Source of the DNA: Lentisphaerota bacterium
GTDB taxonomy: Bacteria > Verrucomicrobiota > Lentisphaeria > Victivallales > Victivallaceae
Reading direction: 5' to 3'
Assembly (NCBI GenBank): GCA_015061815.1
Contig: SUVW01000009.1
Span: 1-64,000 of the forward strand
DNA: 64,000 nt
Below are positions 29,866 through 39,115 of the stretch, piece after piece (the stretch's first letter is position 1; each line of letters opens with the position of its first letter). The position numbers and the translations under genes are program-made. The notes under the pieces are model-generated. The model made no database searches. It was not told where the DNA came from and saw nothing but the letters and a program-made list of their open reading frames with translations.

Positions 29866-30312
29866 TAATCAAAAACAACATTCTGTTTATCAAAAACGAT
29901 ATCGCAAAAAAAGAATTATCTTGGGTTATAAAATAATATAATATTGGTTATTATTATGAATTTGCGTAAAAAAAAAGATCGCCCGGATGAGTTACGCCAA
30001 GCATTAAAAATTCATCGAACGTTTCAAAAATCTTCACTATTTATGTAAAAAATGCAATAAAAGATGAACTGTATTTTTATAAACCCGATAAAAATAATGT
30101 TTCCAAAAAACACCAGCATTTATGAAAATGGGAAATTGGGAAATGGGGAAATGGTAGAAAATGAAAAAAATGGTAACATTCCACATATCTCAATGATATG
30201 CAATTTGTTATGCACAAATCATTCTCCTTTTGAATTTTTGCTTGCCAAATCGGATTGCGGATGATATATCACTTGCGGTGTTGAAGCTTTAATATCTTAA
30301 TAATATCGCGCC
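29866..30312. other. AT-rich stretch without a supported gene
   Basis: Long A and T runs dominate. A 30-codon frame at 29956-30048 (MNLRKKKDRPDELRQALKIH) lacks a Shine-Dalgarno site; it could be the broken start of a DNA-binding or phage protein, but this is not demonstrable. The 66-aa ORF at 30064-30264 spans GGGAAATGG-type low-complexity sequence and has no recognisable domain. Confidence 0.5.
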
Positions 30313-30540
30313 GGTCGCGGCAAGGTTCGGGTAAGTGGCAAAACGCAGCGAAAAAGCCCTTGTGAAGCCCTTTTGTAAAAAAAACTTCACAGAATTTTTG
30401 GCGAGAGTTGAAAAAATTGTCAGCGTTTTTTTATCTTCCCACGCCATTCTGAAGCGCATTTTGAGGTTGAAACTTCAGAATTTCGTTGTGAAATGAAATT
30501 CTGAAAATCCCTTCACTTTGGTTCAGGAAAACTCAGAATG
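30313..30540 (+). repeat. Dispersed ~228-bp repeat, copy 1
   Basis: This segment matches 35469-35696 in the same orientation, with scattered substitutions and a few 1-3 nt indels. Long shared runs include CTTGTGAAGCCCTTTTGT, AACTTCACAGAATTTTTG and CATTCTGAAGCGCATTTTGA. It contains internal inverted repeats (GTGAAG/CTTCAC; ATTCTGAAG/CTTCAGAAT). No intact reading frame crosses it. Candidates are a decayed non-autonomous element or a structured RNA element. Confidence 0.85.
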
Positions 30541-30950
30541 TACAGCAACGCCAAAAGAAAATTGACGAAAACGGCAAAAATCTTTCATTTGCCGCTTGCA
30601 ATTTTATTTATGGAAATTTCATTTCTTGGCGGCTTGATGCACGGATATCGCAGAAGCTGTAAAGCCGCGTAAATTTTAAACACATAATTTTCCGCAACGC
30701 AGCAGATAAAAGACTGCTGTGACGGTTCTTTCTGCTTAAATTCAAAAGAAAATCATCCAAACTCACCTTTTTGCCTTGCATTGCGGAGTTTTTGAAAAAT
30801 AAATCAGAGTTACTTGTATTTTCTTCTATGATGAAGTATATTATTGAAAGAGTTTACGGTCGGTGCCATTTTGCGGAGAAATGATTTTTTGCACCCTCCT
30901 AGGAAATTTCAAAAATTCACAAAGAGGATCGTTCAGCGAAGAAAAACTTT
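30541..30950. other. Non-coding stretch between repeat and operon
   Basis: No reading frame with a start, Shine-Dalgarno site and recognisable sequence is seen on either strand. Translation in several frames gives short peptides broken by stops, as in decayed coding DNA. The stretch ends at the promoter of the CsgG-like operon. Confidence 0.5.
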
Positions 30951-30952
30951 TC

Positions 30953-30980
30953 TTTGAATATGAAATTTTTGTGTTATATT
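30953..30980 (+). promoter_or_regulatory. Promoter of the CsgG-like/TPR operon
   Basis: TTTGAA, 16 bp, then TATATT, about 44 nt upstream of the ATG at 31024. The -10 is the same hexamer used by many other units in this window. Confidence 0.55.
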
Positions 30981-31023
30981 ATTGACCGCAGAAAGATAGA
31001 AATGATTGCTGTGGAGCAATGAG

Positions 31024-33477
31024 ATGAAAAAAATATTTCTTTGTATCATTATTTTAAGTATGGCTTGTGCTGATTTATTCAGCGCAGAAAATAATGTAGG
31101 TGACGGTGAAATTCCGGTTATTACCATTGAACCGATGCTCGACCGTATTGGTTGGTATATGTCACATAAAGCATACACATTTCAGACCCGTCTTTCAGCG
31201 GAGTTGTTTACCCGCTGGAAATGTCATATTTCAGCCCGCAACATCGGATTGCTACTCCATCAGGAGCGTTCATTGTCATCGCTTGAAAAACAGCTCGCTG
31301 CCATGCCGTCTCCGCAATGGATTGTCGGTGGTTCTTATCAAAAAGGGCGCAGGATGAATGGGAAATGGAGTGAAACAGATATTGAACTTTTGCTGATAAA
31401 TGCTGCTAATGGAGCTTTGCAGCGTGAAGTTTTCCGTGAAAAAGCAGGACATTACAAAGAGGCAAGATTTATTTCGGATCATATTGCCAAAAAATTGAAA
31501 CTTTCTCCCCGCAAAGTTGTCACTTCCGCAAGTGTTAACAGAAAAAATGAAACATGGGCGATTCTGCCGTTTTTTGATATAATGACAATCAAAGATTATA
31601 ATAAATCCAAAAAGTTTTCGGGAACCGATTATTTTGTCTATCAAATTCAGCAGAGCGGAAAATTGAAAAACATTGTTTCCCGGGAAAATATAGATAAAAT
31701 TTTTGCTGAACATAAGTTGCAGAGTCTCAATAATATAGATGCCGGAAGTGCCGCCGGAATCGGCAGATTACTTTCCGCTGACCGGATCATTTACGGAATG
31801 GTCACTAATGGCGAGGAAAAAGGAATCCGCAGGCTGGATATCCTGGCTGTTGATTGCAATTCCGGTGTGGTGGTCAACGCTTTTACCGGCACATTTACAA
31901 ATGAAACACAGGAATCTGAACTTGCCAAAGCCGCTGTAACTATTTTGAACGTTCCCGATTTATTGCCGCCGACCGGCGGTGGGAAATTCAACGCTGAGGC
32001 AATTGATATTGAATCAAAGCGGCTGCTTGATGTTATCCGCAAATCCCGTTTTCAGTATCGAAGTACTTCCGTTTTAAGCGGACAGATCCTTTCGCTTGCA
32101 GAAAGCTATTTTTTGCTCAATTCCAAAGACCACTTCCGTTGTCTGGTTCTTGCTCATGAACTGGTGTGGAATCTTTATTTCCGGTATTGTCCGGAGCATT
32201 GGTATCATATCTACTCCGATAAATCCAAGCCAAACCGTTCGGATCTGACCACTACAGAAGAACAAAGTAAAATGGCAGCCAACTTCCTGTTGCCGATACT
32301 TGACAGGTTGCGCTATCGTTCGATTGCAGAATATAATGATTCTATCGGACGGTTGAAGTTCCGATTGTTGGTAAATGCCGGCAGGTGTGATGAAGCCGAA
32401 GCTATCTGGCGCAATCGGACAGACGGTGGTTTGGATATAACCGATTATGATATGGGAATGTTGGAAATGCGGCGTAAAAATTTCCGCAAAGGCGGCGATT
32501 ATTTCCTTAAATCCCAGCGTCCCGGACATGCGTTGTACGCATATTATTTGAGCGGAGACCACAAACTCGCGTATAAAACCGGAGTGGAAGCAAAGCCGCT
32601 ATTTACCCCTCGTTACAGCGAAGAATTTCTGATTTGGATCGAATTGGTTGAAAAATACGGTACACCTGGCGATGCTTTAAAGTGGCTTGAGGCTTTTGAA
32701 GAGTACGGCAAAAAAGAATCCACATACTACAAAAATTGTTTCTTTAATATCGGACTGAACAAAATTGCCGCAGAAAAAATCAAGCAACTGCGTGCCAGCA
32801 GTAACCAGATTAAATTTTATCCTGCCAAAGAGCTGTTTGCCCAATGGACAAAATATCCAGTCTATTTTCAGGGATTGGGAAATATGCCGCCCAAAGAAGT
32901 TGAGTCTGCAGCCGCAATGCTTGAAAAAGAACTCGGTCTGACAGTAAAAATCCTGCCGGTGCGTCCTTTGCCGGTCAAGGGAGCGTATGATGCCGGACAC
33001 CATGCATTTGCTGCCGGTAAATTGGAATTGGCGGTGCGTTACGCATACGGAGACGCGTTTCCGACCGATGGTATGTTATTTTATATTCTGCTGTCAGATG
33101 CAATAAATGATGATGGTATAAATGTGCTTTTTAACAATTTGCCGGATTTCGGTATAGCCTCTTTTTCAAGAATGCCGATTGCTGCAACGACGGTTGATTC
33201 AGTTAAACTGATTGCAGTTTCGACGACCCGCCAGATTTTGAACAACACTATGCGTGAAAATAAGTATTGCAACAATTATCCCTGTATGATGGCGGCGATT
33301 TCAAGTTTCAGCCGGTGTAACGAATTGGATTTCAAAATCTGTTCCGAATGTATGCCAGTTATTAAGAAGGGCAATATCCGGCGGGCGTTGCGCCGTATGG
33401 CAAACCGGAATGTTGAAAGACATTGTTCACAAGCAGAAATTAAAAAATTTGAAGAATATAAAAAGGAGTGGAAATGA
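31024..33477 (+). CDS. CsgG-like / helical-repeat / degenerate archaemetzincin fusion protein
   Basis: The product has 817 residues from MKKIFLCIIILSMACADLFSAE, a signal peptide, with GGAG 8 nt upstream; the ORF-track TTG start is rejected. Residues ~25-155 and ~176-310 are two CsgG-like domains; the second reads IVSRENIDKIFAEHKLQ, then IGRLLSADRIIYGMV. Residues ~330-600 are helical, TPR-like. Residues ~605-790 match archaemetzincins: GNMPPKEVESAAAMLEKELG, LPVKGAYDAGHHAFAAGKL, and a C-x4-C-x-M-x16-C-x2-C zinc-knuckle (C749, C754, M756, C773, C776) close to the family's C-x4-C-x-M-x17-C-x2-C. The HExxHxxGxxH zinc site is absent: ILNNTMRENKY stands in its place. The third domain is therefore probably a non-catalytic binding module in an exported protein. 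It overlaps the next gene by 4 nt. Confidence 0.7.
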   Translation: MKKIFLCIIILSMACADLFSAENNVGDGEIPVITIEPMLDRIGWYMSHKAYTFQTRLSAELFTRWKCHISARNIGLLLHQERSLSSLEKQLAAMPSPQWIVGGSYQKGRRMNGKWSETDIELLLINAANGALQREVFREKAGHYKEARFISDHIAKKLKLSPRKVVTSASVNRKNETWAILPFFDIMTIKDYNKSKKFSGTDYFVYQIQQSGKLKNIVSRENIDKIFAEHKLQSLNNIDAGSAAGIGRLLSADRIIYGMVTNGEEKGIRRLDILAVDCNSGVVVNAFTGTFTNETQESELAKAAVTILNVPDLLPPTGGGKFNAEAIDIESKRLLDVIRKSRFQYRSTSVLSGQILSLAESYFLLNSKDHFRCLVLAHELVWNLYFRYCPEHWYHIYSDKSKPNRSDLTTTEEQSKMAANFLLPILDRLRYRSIAEYNDSIGRLKFRLLVNAGRCDEAEAIWRNRTDGGLDITDYDMGMLEMRRKNFRKGGDYFLKSQRPGHALYAYYLSGDHKLAYKTGVEAKPLFTPRYSEEFLIWIELVEKYGTPGDALKWLEAFEEYGKKESTYYKNCFFNIGLNKIAAEKIKQLRASSNQIKFYPAKELFAQWTKYPVYFQGLGNMPPKEVESAAAMLEKELGLTVKILPVRPLPVKGAYDAGHHAFAAGKLELAVRYAYGDAFPTDGMLFYILLSDAINDDGINVLFNNLPDFGIASFSRMPIAATTVDSVKLIAVSTTRQILNNTMRENKYCNNYPCMMAAISSFSRCNELDFKICSECMPVIKKGNIRRALRRMANRNVERHCSQAEIKKFEEYKKEWK

Positions 33478-34370
33478 AAAAAATTCTGATTGCAGTTTTT
33501 TTGAGTTTAAGCGTTTTTTCTCTCATGGGAAATACCTATGAAAAGCAGATGCAGCAGGCTGAACAACTTTTCAAGTCAAAGAAATTCAAAGATGCCGCTG
33601 TCGCTTTTGATGATGCTTCTCTGGAAACCGAAGATGCTCAAAAACGTATCAATGCAAGATTCCGCAGTTGGGAGTGTTTGCAAGAGCTACGAAGCCGTGA
33701 TGCTGTTTCTACCGCAGAATCTCTGCTTTATGATGAACCGGAGTTGAGTTTCGAGCGCAAAATCAAACTCATGTCATATATCGCCCGGCATGGCAAAAAA
33801 GAAAACCGTGAAAAAGTTTTGAGTTTCGGACTCAATTTGAAAGGTCTCTCTGAAAGAGAGCGTAGTCAGATTCTGCTTGTAGCCTTGAAAACTCAGGGTA
33901 CCTGGCAGAGCGAAGCCTACGTCAAAGAAATCCTTGCCATGAAAGATCCTGATCCGGCAGCGAAGGCAAATGCACTCGGAGATTTGGCAAATGTTTATCT
34001 GTGGAGTAAACGCGATCCTGTCAATGCGCTGAAATATGTCAATGAAGCACTGGCAATAAAAGAACTTCAGGGACAGGAACGGCAATTTTATCTGCTGGTT
34101 CAGGCTCGTTCATATATCGGAGTCAAGCGTTTTGACATGGCAGAGAGAAGCTATCGTGCCGCTATAAAGATCGGTAAACAGCACAATTTTCAGGAAGCGG
34201 CATACAATGAACTTATCCGGGTTTATGTTATGACCAAACAGGGAATGAAAATTGAGCCGCTTGTAAAGCAGGCAATAACTGATAAACGGTTGGTAAAACG
34301 TCAACGGCAGGTTTTTTCCAATCTGCTGGCTCAAATTGAAAAAGCAAAACAACAACAAAACGGGAGATAA
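33474..34370 (+). CDS. Secreted TPR-like repeat protein
   Basis: The product has 298 residues. The ATG overlaps the previous stop (ATGA) and has a strong AAGGAG site. A signal peptide (MKKILIAVFLSLSVFSLMGN) is followed by helical repeats of the TPR type: YEKQMQQAEQLFKSKKFKDA, LGDLANVYLWSKRDPVNALK, YLLVQARSYIGVKRFDMAER and YNELIRVYVMTKQGM. The mature protein is probably periplasmic or outer-membrane associated and acts as a scaffold for the two CsgG-like partners. No catalytic motif is seen. The gene lies between the two CsgG-like genes and 3 nt from the next. Confidence 0.75.
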   Translation: MKKILIAVFLSLSVFSLMGNTYEKQMQQAEQLFKSKKFKDAAVAFDDASLETEDAQKRINARFRSWECLQELRSRDAVSTAESLLYDEPELSFERKIKLMSYIARHGKKENREKVLSFGLNLKGLSERERSQILLVALKTQGTWQSEAYVKEILAMKDPDPAAKANALGDLANVYLWSKRDPVNALKYVNEALAIKELQGQERQFYLLVQARSYIGVKRFDMAERSYRAAIKIGKQHNFQEAAYNELIRVYVMTKQGMKIEPLVKQAITDKRLVKRQRQVFSNLLAQIEKAKQQQNGR

Positions 34371-34373
34371 AAA

Positions 34374-35336
34374 ATGTTACGTTCCAAAAAAATCTTTTCA
34401 GTGATGGCAGTTTTTCTTATTTCTTCAATTGCGCTTGCTGATTCAGTGATAATTTTCAATCCGATGTTGATTGACGGCAAAGGAGTTGATGCCGGACTGT
34501 TCAATGATATTGTTTCAGCAGAGCTGTCTTGCTCTGAGCAGATAAAATTGGTCGATCGTGAACAGCTTGATAAATTGCTTCGTGAAAGAGCTCTCAAACC
34601 TAACGGAATGCTCAATGCTGATGATGTCAGTAATATAGGTTCTCTGCTCGGTGCGGACAGTTTTGTTTCGGGTTCGGTTCGGGAAAAAGGTGATAAGCTT
34701 ATGATTTTTGTGAAAACCATCTCCGTTAAAACCGGTGTGGTTAAAATGAAATATATTAATGTTGCCAATAATCTTGAAAGTGCAGCCGAAAAGACTGCCC
34801 AAACTGCGATTGATTTGATCAAAAGTCAGAAAGCTGCAGTAAATTCCGTATCAACGAAAATAGAAATTCTTGTACCGGAAAAAAAGAGACCGGTTGTAGC
34901 AATATTTATTCCGGAAATTCATATTGCAAGTCAGCGTTTGATTGATCCGGCAGCAGAAAATGAATTGACCAAATTTTTCCTGACACAGAAGTTTCCGGTG
35001 AAACAGCTTGCGCCTTTAGCTGTCGGACAGAATGGTTTACTTGATAATCTGATTGGAAATCGTACAAAATTGGTGGAAGCGGCGGAGAAAGTCGGAGCTG
35101 CTTATCTTATTTTCGGCGAAGCCATTTCTGAATCTTCAGATACCTTTGGCAATTATCGTACTTCCAGAGCTCGTGTTGAACTTAAAATAATATCTACAGC
35201 AAATAATAACATAGTTTGGGCAGACAGTGCGTATGCTGGTGCCGCAGATACAGCAGAAATCATTTCCGGCAAAAAGGCGATACAGAAAGCTGCAGTAAAA
35301 CTTGCACTCAAAGCCGCAGATGTTTTGTTGAAGTAA
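34374..35336 (+). CDS. Double CsgG-like secreted protein
   Basis: The product has 320 residues with a signal peptide (IFSVMAVFLISSIALA). Residues ~25-150 form a CsgG-like domain: IKLVDREQLDKLLRERALK, NIGSLLGADSFVSGSVREKG, then VKTISVKTGVVKM. Residues ~170-318 repeat the same logic more loosely (RPVVAIFIPEIHIASQRLID, EKVGAAYLIFGEAISES, RVELKIISTANNNIVW). CsgG itself forms the curli secretion pore; the wider family includes periplasmic or outer-membrane proteins of unknown role. No lipobox cysteine is visible. GGGAG precedes the ATG, and a terminator follows 80 nt downstream, closing the three-gene operon. Confidence 0.75.
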   Translation: MLRSKKIFSVMAVFLISSIALADSVIIFNPMLIDGKGVDAGLFNDIVSAELSCSEQIKLVDREQLDKLLRERALKPNGMLNADDVSNIGSLLGADSFVSGSVREKGDKLMIFVKTISVKTGVVKMKYINVANNLESAAEKTAQTAIDLIKSQKAAVNSVSTKIEILVPEKKRPVVAIFIPEIHIASQRLIDPAAENELTKFFLTQKFPVKQLAPLAVGQNGLLDNLIGNRTKLVEAAEKVGAAYLIFGEAISESSDTFGNYRTSRARVELKIISTANNNIVWADSAYAGAADTAEIISGKKAIQKAAVKLALKAADVLLK

Positions 35337-35415
35337 GGATGGTACCGGCGTTTCAACATATAAGTAAAACACACATAAAGGTTTCCCGGAACGATGATAG
35401 CGGGAAATAGCTTCG

Positions 35416-35444
35416 GCGGCAGGAGAAATCTTGCCGCTTTTTTT
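35416..35444 (+). terminator. Intrinsic terminator of the CsgG-like operon
   Basis: GCGGCA pairs with TGCCGC around an ~10-nt loop, followed directly by seven T residues. Confidence 0.8.
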
Positions 35445-35468
35445 GCGTTTACACTCGGCGTGTTGCGA

Positions 35469-35696
35469 CGGTTGCGGTAAAGGTCGGGTAAGTGGCAAAA
35501 AGCAGCACAAAAGCCCTTGTGAAGCCCTTTTGTGAAAAAAACTTCACAGAATTTTTGTCAGACTTGAAAAATTTGCCAGCGTTTTTTTATCTTTCCCCGC
35601 CATTCTGAAGCGCATTTTGAGCTTAAAACTTTAGAATCTTGCTGTGAAATAAATTTCTGAAAATCGCTTCACTTTTGTTCTCAAACATTCAGAATG
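35469..35696 (+). repeat. Dispersed ~228-bp repeat, copy 2
   Basis: Direct-orientation match to 30313-30540. Here the distal half is framed by a 9-bp inverted repeat, CATTCTGAA (35601-35609) and TTCAGAATG (35688-35696). The copy overlaps the last codons and stop of the membrane-protein gene that converges on it from the right. The two copies bracket the three-gene CsgG-like operon. Confidence 0.85.
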
Positions 35697-37327: not shown

Positions 37328-39115
37328 TTATTTTGCGGCATTCCCGATAACAGCTTTTATCCGGCGTACTCCGCGACTGGAACTTTCCTCTTTAAGGATT
37401 TTAAATGCCTGCAAATCTCCGGTATTTTCCGCGTGAGGTCCGCCGCAAATTTCCTTGCTGACATCGCCCATTGTGTAAACTTTCACAACTTCGCCGTATT
37501 TGTTACCGAAAAGTCCCATCGCACCGGCGGCCCGGGCATCATCGACACTCATTTCTTCGCAGACAACCGGCAGTTTGCGGTTGATCGCATCGTTGACCAG
37601 AGCCTGAACTTCCTGCAGCTGTTCCGGAGAAACTTTGTCCGGATGCGAGAAGTCGAAGCGGAGCCGTTCGGCGGTAATATTTGAACCGCGCTGCTCTACG
37701 TGGGTGCCGAGGACTTTTCTCAACGCCGCATGCAGCAGGTGGGTTGCGGTATGAAGCTTGGCTGTTTCTTCGGAATGATCGGCCAATCCGCCTTTGAATT
37801 TCTGTTCCGCGCCGGCCCGGGAAAGTTCCTGATGTTTGGCATACGCGGCATTGAAGCCATCCACATCAACCTCAAATCCCTGTTCTTTGGCCATTTCCAC
37901 AGTCAATTCAAGGGGGAAGCCGTAGGTTTCATAGAGATTGAAAGCATTTTTGCCGCTGATAACTTTTTTGGTTATATGCGGCGGTACCCGGTCGATCAAT
38001 TTCTGAAACTCTTTGGTTCCGTGTTCCAATGCGGCGGCAAATTGTTTTTCTTCGCGCTCAAGTTCACCTTTGATCATATCGGCATTCGCAGATAATTCCG
38101 GATAAAATTCTCCGAATTGGGCAATGACTTTATCGGCGATTCTGGATGCAAATTCGGTGACGATACCGATTTTCCGTCCTTCACGGATCGCCCGGCGGAT
38201 CAGGCGGCGCAGTACATAGGGCTGATCCACGCGTCCGGGAGTAATGCCGTCACCGATAATAAATGTCGCTGCCCGCAAGTGGTCAACGATGATCCGTTCG
38301 CTGGATGTGCGCTGTGCGGCCGGAATTCCCGGAACATTGCGGATGGCATCCAATTCGGCAAAAAGTGAAGCAAAAACCTCGGTTTCGTAACAACTTGGCT
38401 TGCCTTGCAGCACGGCAGTGATCCGTTCCAGTCCCATTCCGGTATCGACATTGCGTTGGGCCAGAGGTTCAAATTTTCCTTCAGCGTTTTTATTGTACTG
38501 CATAAAAACGTCGTTCCAGATCTCGACCCAGAGTTTGTTTTCCGGATCAAAAACTGCAGGAGCCGGAGCAGGGCCGGTCCAGTAGAACATTTCTGTATCC
38601 GGGCCGCAGGGACCGGTAGTGCCGGCCGGACCCCACCAGTTATCCTTTTTGCCGAGCTTGGCAATGCGCTCTGCCGGAATTCCCAGGTTGTGCCAGATGT
38701 TCCATGCTTCCTCATCAAAAGGACAATCTTCGTCACCGGCAAAAACTGTTACCGCCAGTTGTTCAACCGGGATACCCAGTTCTTTGGTCAGAAATGTGAA
38801 ACTGAAATTGATCGCATCCTCTTTGAAGTAATCGCCAAGTGACCAGTTGCCCAGCATTTCAAAAAAGGTCAGATGCACTGCATCACCCACTTCGTCGATA
38901 TCTCCGGTGCGGATGCACTTCTGGCAGTCGGTCAATCTTCTGCCGGAGGGATGTTTTGCTCCCTGCAGATATGGTACCAGCGGATGCATTCCGGCGGTGG
39001 TAAACAAACAGGTCGGATCATTATCGGGAATAAGGGAAGCACTCTTAATCTCGGCATGACCGTTGGCTTTGAAAAACTCAATGTACTTTCTTCTCAATTC
39101 ATTTGCTGTCATCAT
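37328..39115 (-). CDS. alaS: Alanine--tRNA ligase, short form
   Basis: The product has 595 residues; bacterial AlaRS is usually ~870-880. The class II catalytic core is complete: FFKANGHAEIKSASLIP, FTTAGMHPLVPYLQG, HLTFFEMLGNWSLGDYFKE, NVDTGMGLERITAVLQG and GRVDQPYVLRRLIRRA. The editing domain follows with zinc-binding HTATHLLHAAL (HxxxH) and CGGPHAENTG (CxxxH). The protein ends right after RRIKAVIGNAAK, so the C-terminal DHHA1/C-Ala region is missing. In standard AlaRS that region helps dimerisation and tRNA elbow contact. The stop is clean, with no continuing frame. It contains the 48-bp segment copied at 476-523. Confidence 0.93.
   Translation of the reverse strand: MMTANELRRKYIEFFKANGHAEIKSASLIPDNDPTCLFTTAGMHPLVPYLQGAKHPSGRRLTDCQKCIRTGDIDEVGDAVHLTFFEMLGNWSLGDYFKEDAINFSFTFLTKELGIPVEQLAVTVFAGDEDCPFDEEAWNIWHNLGIPAERIAKLGKKDNWWGPAGTTGPCGPDTEMFYWTGPAPAPAVFDPENKLWVEIWNDVFMQYNKNAEGKFEPLAQRNVDTGMGLERITAVLQGKPSCYETEVFASLFAELDAIRNVPGIPAAQRTSSERIIVDHLRAATFIIGDGITPGRVDQPYVLRRLIRRAIREGRKIGIVTEFASRIADKVIAQFGEFYPELSANADMIKGELEREEKQFAAALEHGTKEFQKLIDRVPPHITKKVISGKNAFNLYETYGFPLELTVEMAKEQGFEVDVDGFNAAYAKHQELSRAGAEQKFKGGLADHSEETAKLHTATHLLHAALRKVLGTHVEQRGSNITAERLRFDFSHPDKVSPEQLQEVQALVNDAINRKLPVVCEEMSVDDARAAGAMGLFGNKYGEVVKVYTMGDVSKEICGGPHAENTGDLQAFKILKEESSSRGVRRIKAVIGNAAK
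38192..38239. repeat. 48-bp segment duplicated at 476-523
   Basis: This is the internal alaS copy of the exact 48-bp repeat, covering codons ~293-308 of AlaRS. It lies within intact coding sequence, so it is likely the original. Confidence 0.9.

Follow-up and report, generated by a model that had tools for sequence, protein, structure and literature searches.

A gene of a Lentisphaerota bacterium raises the question of what a peptidase fold is for once its entire active site is gone and its cysteine knuckle is kept. The gene lies at 31024-33477 on the plus strand of a 64,000-nt stretch (contig SUVW01000009.1, positions 1 to 64,000), here called the window. An earlier reading of the window, made from its letters and translations (the sequence-only reading), had proposed that the C-terminal part of the product is an archaemetzincin domain that retains a zinc knuckle but no catalytic ligand. 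All features of the gene and its operon described below are on the plus strand.

From an ATG start, the open reading frame encodes 817 aa, and an alternative TTG start is possible six codons upstream. The frame and its homologues indicate a signal peptide, two CsgG/TolB-N-type domains, a TPR-like solenoid and a pseudo-archaemetzincin. The signal peptide, MKKIFLCIIILSMACADLFSA, is predicted by eye at 31024-31086, and some homologues also have hydrophobic N-termini. In the full-length AlphaFold model (pLDDT 81.2, pTM 0.82), two alpha/beta domains are followed by a helical solenoid, the M54-like domain and C-terminal helices. The first alpha/beta domain (aa 32-158; 31117-31497) is predicted by the model and Foldseek to have a TolB-N/LpoB/PelC-like fold, and the second (aa 177-309; 31552-31950) appears CsgG-like from the model, Foldseek and a weak Pfam CsgG match. 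The solenoid (aa 324-564; 31993-32715) is alpha-helical and TPR-like by model secondary structure and Foldseek. The pseudo-archaemetzincin (M54-fold) domain, delimited with profiles, AlphaFold and Foldseek, covers aa 597-781 (32812-33366), with GNMPPKEV beginning at residue 619.

Foldseek matches of the full-length model include AfAmzA, TolB, LpoB, PelC, GNA1162 and APC/C subunits (TPR-type solenoids), listed for the model as a whole rather than for the first or the second alpha/beta domain. The CsgG-like domains proposed in the sequence-only reading therefore hold in terms of fold, with matches to TolB-N, LpoB and PelC, whereas in Pfam the CsgG match at aa 200-262 stays below the gathering score (19.4 bits against a cut-off of 20.8). 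The window protein shares the CsgG/LpoB/TolB-N/PelC/GNA1162 fold in its N-terminal domains, but differs from other proteins of this fold in carrying the domain twice and joining it to a solenoid and a pseudo-protease. Beta-barrel-forming hairpins are also not evident in the model: its secondary structure, from which this is read, has no long extra hairpins of the kind that form the pore of the CsgG channel. Our literature searches returned no account of a fold shared by CsgG, LpoB, TolB and PelC. Several of the matched proteins are periplasmic or belong to the outer membrane. From the signal peptide seen by eye and the company of these domains, the 817-aa protein is probably periplasmic or surface-located.

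Is the C-terminal domain really an archaemetzincin? Searched on its own, the window protein has no M54 match in Pfam at E ≤ 1, no NCBIfam match and no credible match in the PDB, so homologues were collected for a family profile. The resulting profile, A2, is an alignment of 13 homologous domains. Against the PDB at E ≤ 1, A2 matches four sequences, every one an archaemetzincin: Archaeoglobus fulgidus AmzA at 4.8e-10 and 8e-10 (4axq/3zvs), the Methanopyrus kandleri protein at 2.8e-4 (2x7m) and the Methanocorpusculum protein at 0.51 (3lmc). When the 13-domain profile is aligned by hhalign with 11 HExxH-bearing M54 proteins of the same phylum, E is 4.7e-17. With the active-site and cysteine part removed, E is still 1.5e-14, compared with 0.22-0.68 in five column-shuffled controls. 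When 198 genomes from the class were scanned in six frames with A2, a single protein outside the family came up at 1e-7, an M54 protein bearing HETGHILGLKHC.

Structure prediction agrees. The domain model built with the 13 sequences (pLDDT 87.9, pTM 0.86) has archaemetzincins as its top five PDB matches in Foldseek (3zvs with two chains, 4axq, 2x7m and 3lmc; 5.7e-9 to 2.6e-7), with TM scores (target) of 0.69-0.78 to these five chains from three species; the next match has an E of 0.047. Profile similarity, predicted fold and four cysteines together place the domain in the M54 fold family, and its homology to archaemetzincins is settled as far as computation goes. Of the two tests that the sequence-only reading had named for its proposal, profile similarity to M54 is present and the modelled fold is that of an archaemetzincin, so that the proposal is largely supported. 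Pfam M54 at E ≤ 1 recognizes no individual member of the fused family, meaning that diverged M54 members escape it.

The domain shares with archaemetzincins (AfAmzA 3zvs/4axq, MkAmzA 2x7m, Methanocorpusculum 3lmc) the whole-domain fold, the order of elements and the Cys4 module. Unlike them, it lacks HExxHxxGxxH, the motif of active archaemetzincins, and is part of a multidomain, probably secreted protein. The place of the lost motif, located by alignment and model, is aa 738-748 (ILNNTMRENKY; 33235-33267). Counted back from C749, the motif positions are occupied by I738, L739, T742, E745 and Y748, exactly as had been read from the sequence, and HExxH is absent from the 45 residues preceding the first cysteine in 13 of the 13 domains. 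What seems to remain of the active-site helix (domain residues 131-147 in the domain model) ends at the position of the motif's H4.

The Cys4 knuckle, in contrast to the catalytic motif, is kept. It reads C749-x4-C754-x-M756-x16-C773-x2-C776 (33268-33351), and its four cysteines are invariant among the 13 aligned homologues (13/13). When the protein was shuffled 20000 times, a CX4CX17-20CX2C pattern arose in 4 of the shuffled sequences. The spacing had been given correctly but described as nearly equal to the family form; because x16 is the spacing of 11/11 aligned HExxH-bearing M54 proteins of the phylum, the module equals the local family form. Among distant members of the fused family, the C2-C3 spacing varies. 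The methionine of C-x-M, corresponding to the Met-turn Met, is present in the window as proposed, but it occurs in only 4 of the 13 domains, with F, N, V, I, S or L in the others. Of this motif, only the cysteines are conserved in the fused family, which differs in this respect as well from archaemetzincins.

The domain evolves under constraint. Its dN/dS is 0.083 against the homologue in G033 and 0.069 against that in G068, the latter with dS near saturation, similar to the remainder of the protein. Purifying selection at about 0.08 indicates that the domain is not part of a decaying gene. On the strength of alignment and model, the domain is a maintained non-peptidase version of the M54 fold.

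The fused protein was found in 6 of the 78 genomes of the host's family, the source included, where the others are 98, 84, 73, 49 and 33% identical to it, and in 10 of the 137 genomes of the order, in three families, with two or three copies in some genomes. At one locus (L039 1074-11316, MHBI01000071.1), three tandem paralogous CsgG/pseudo-M54 proteins of 1045, 1281 and 1088 aa are encoded in stop-to-stop frames, some with additional N- or C-terminal domains.

Other M54 proteins of the phylum were collected with Pfam M54. Among 289 genomes there were 25 matches, which by eye comprised 15 with HExxH, 9 without and one unrelated. A match of 22 bits (G067:C3), in a genome that also carries a homologue of the fused protein, was rejected as a catalytic-type M54, being an unrelated repeat-rich protein with HEAGH. 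This large protein (G067:C3:122454-122648, L059), in which the sequence reads HEAGHLLGESH, is probably a different secreted metallopeptidase, and its M54 match is weak. The HExxH-bearing proteins (e.g. L020, L021, L070) are the nearest catalytic-type relatives in the tree below and share the x16 spacing; they differ from the fused family in keeping HExxHxx(G)xxH, in being about 300 aa long, many with signal-peptide-like N-termini, and in having no CsgG-like domains noted by eye. The nine without HExxH (L023, L024, L027-L033) have lost the motif like the fused family, but Pfam M54 finds them directly and no CsgG-like domains are seen in them. Most of the nine keep the knuckle cysteines, which are absent in L030 and partly missing in L027 and L032. 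Several of the nine have TPR-like or signal-peptide-like parts, so the statement that archaemetzincins are normally small single-domain proteins is only partly true, TPR-fused relatives without HExxH existing in the same phylum.

In a tree of 36 domains, which is unrooted and uncertain in its deep branches, the fused family is a single group (95/90) adjoining the main HExxH-bearing group. The nine other HExxH-less proteins are separate from it and form two groups, with support of 99/96 and 100/99, suggesting that the active site was lost probably at least twice in the phylum.

The fusion gene is the first of a three-gene operon. Its stop overlaps the start of a gene for a TPR protein of 298 aa (33474-34370; ATGA at 33474), which is followed by a gene for a CsgG/LpoB-family protein of 320 aa (34374-35336), assigned by domain searches and marked as a partner by co-occurrence. 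Close orthologues of this third gene (E < 1e-47; the next-best match is at 3e-16) are found in 9 of the 137 genomes of the order, and all nine are among the ten with the fusion protein (hypergeometric P of 2.8e-13, ignoring genome relatedness). The order is fusion-TPR-CsgG in the family of the window's host. Members of the remaining two families have the CsgG-like gene directly ahead of the fusion gene or a short way upstream of it. That the genes have stayed close while their order changed points to a shared function. Not every homologue lies in such an operon: the 20 kb around the one in G067 contained nothing similar to the TPR gene or the CsgG/LpoB gene.

What could a domain without its cutting centre do here? 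A precedent is CarG of Myxococcus xanthus, an archaemetzincin homologue with HQxxH that is devoid of protease activity and works by binding a protein partner, CarD (PMC8156234). CarG shares the C-x4-C-x-M-x16-C-x2-C spacing, and the G of the motif is replaced by E in CarG as in the window domain. The likeness ends at the ligands: CarG proper (HQxxHxxExxHC) retains the zinc-binding histidines and coordinates two zincs, whereas the window domain has no histidine ligands. CarG is, moreover, a separate transcription regulator, while the window protein is a predicted envelope fusion protein. Cys-to-Ser variants of CarG fail to complement, and apo-CarG is unstable (PMC3427221). By this precedent, the knuckle of the window domain is most simply structural and the remainder would serve as a binding surface. 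HExxH-less M54 domains also occur elsewhere in the phylum, and CarG is a known non-protease; new here is the fusion architecture, of which we found no description in the literature searched. A 2024 review of pseudo-metallopeptidases (PMC11266112) mentions none of archaemetzincin, M54 and AMZ.

With the cutting centre lost and the knuckle kept, the domain most likely binds an envelope partner rather than cutting proteins. We consider it reasonably likely that the M54 fold without active site is a non-catalytic binding or scaffold module of an accessory envelope complex. A remodelled cleft or surface would recognize a protein or peptide partner, the Cys4 knuckle would stabilize the fold, and the fusion protein would join the TPR and CsgG/LpoB-like proteins of its operon in forming the complex. 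We infer the complex from the operon structure, the co-occurrence and the family precedent, and likewise secretion and the binding role. Selection on the fold and the knuckle, and not on the active site, suggests a non-catalytic use of the scaffold itself, which the defined operon offers a place to test.

The cysteines could instead have a role of their own, sensing redox state or metal and reporting envelope stress via the TPR and CsgG-like domains. No other group of invariant positions in the protein stands out as clearly, and redox regulation by the Cys4 of archaemetzincins has been put forward as a speculation (PMC3427221). We regard a sensor as unlikely, however, given that the HExxH-bearing relatives have this knuckle too and that the knuckle of CarG, by the variants and the apo-protein described above, looks structural. 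The chemical state of the cysteines bears on the structural role as well. Other metzincins have two disulfides at the Cys4 positions (PMC3427221), and by analogy the cysteines might form disulfides in an oxidizing compartment. In the source genome (94% complete) neither DsbA nor VKOR was found, which fits a zinc knuckle.

That other residues in the old cleft bind metal or catalyse a different reaction is less probable still. Positions other than the cysteines are conserved, Y614, P650 and P680 being invariant, and the strong purifying selection noted above would suit such chemistry, but the 13-member alignment contains no invariant His, Asp or Glu. Between the old active-site helix and the first cysteine, the loop differs from member to member in both length and sequence, and the family does not preserve the Met-turn Met.

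A chance or convergent resemblance, with a Cys4 domain unrelated to M54, would explain why Pfam M54 recognizes no single family member; it is barely credible and was rejected, because homology survives removal of the active-site and cysteine part (1.5e-14 against 0.2-0.7 in shuffles), the PDB profile matches and top fold matches are solely archaemetzincins, and the reverse scan recovers an HExxH-bearing M54. That the gene is the decaying remnant of a once secreted protease, for which the missing catalytic residues and the patchy presence (10/137 order genomes) might speak, was rejected as next to impossible on the domain dN/dS of 0.07-0.08, with intact reading frames, conservation in three families and a loss common to the whole monophyletic fused family.

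The non-catalytic module and its operon also appear to be mobile. A genome from a different genus contains a 97.7% identical copy (L035 1151-5869) of a 4720-bp block of the window (30879-35598), set in different flanks. In repeat comparisons, the operon is flanked by two directly oriented copies of a dispersed 233-bp repeat that are 87% identical to each other (left, 30308-30540; right, 35465-35696), and the shared block ends at 35598 inside the right copy. The source genome has three more copies elsewhere, complete or partial, and a short fragment (contigs C13, C25). Simple contamination of the assembled genome was rejected as the origin of the copy encoding the 98% identical protein: its contig flank best matches its own genus (82-85%, G004/G006), making transfer of the operon likelier than contamination. 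Recent horizontal transfer between genera is thus likely. In a wider proposal, to which we give slightly less than an even chance, the archaemetzincin fold would have been made into a non-catalytic secreted module repeatedly in the phylum, and the fused family would lie at the heart of a horizontally moving, so far undescribed pseudo-protease/TPR/CsgG-LpoB envelope complex. Incidentally, at 37328-39115 on the minus strand, the window contains an alanyl-tRNA synthetase reading frame (595 aa) that seems to lack the C-terminal part normally found in this enzyme.
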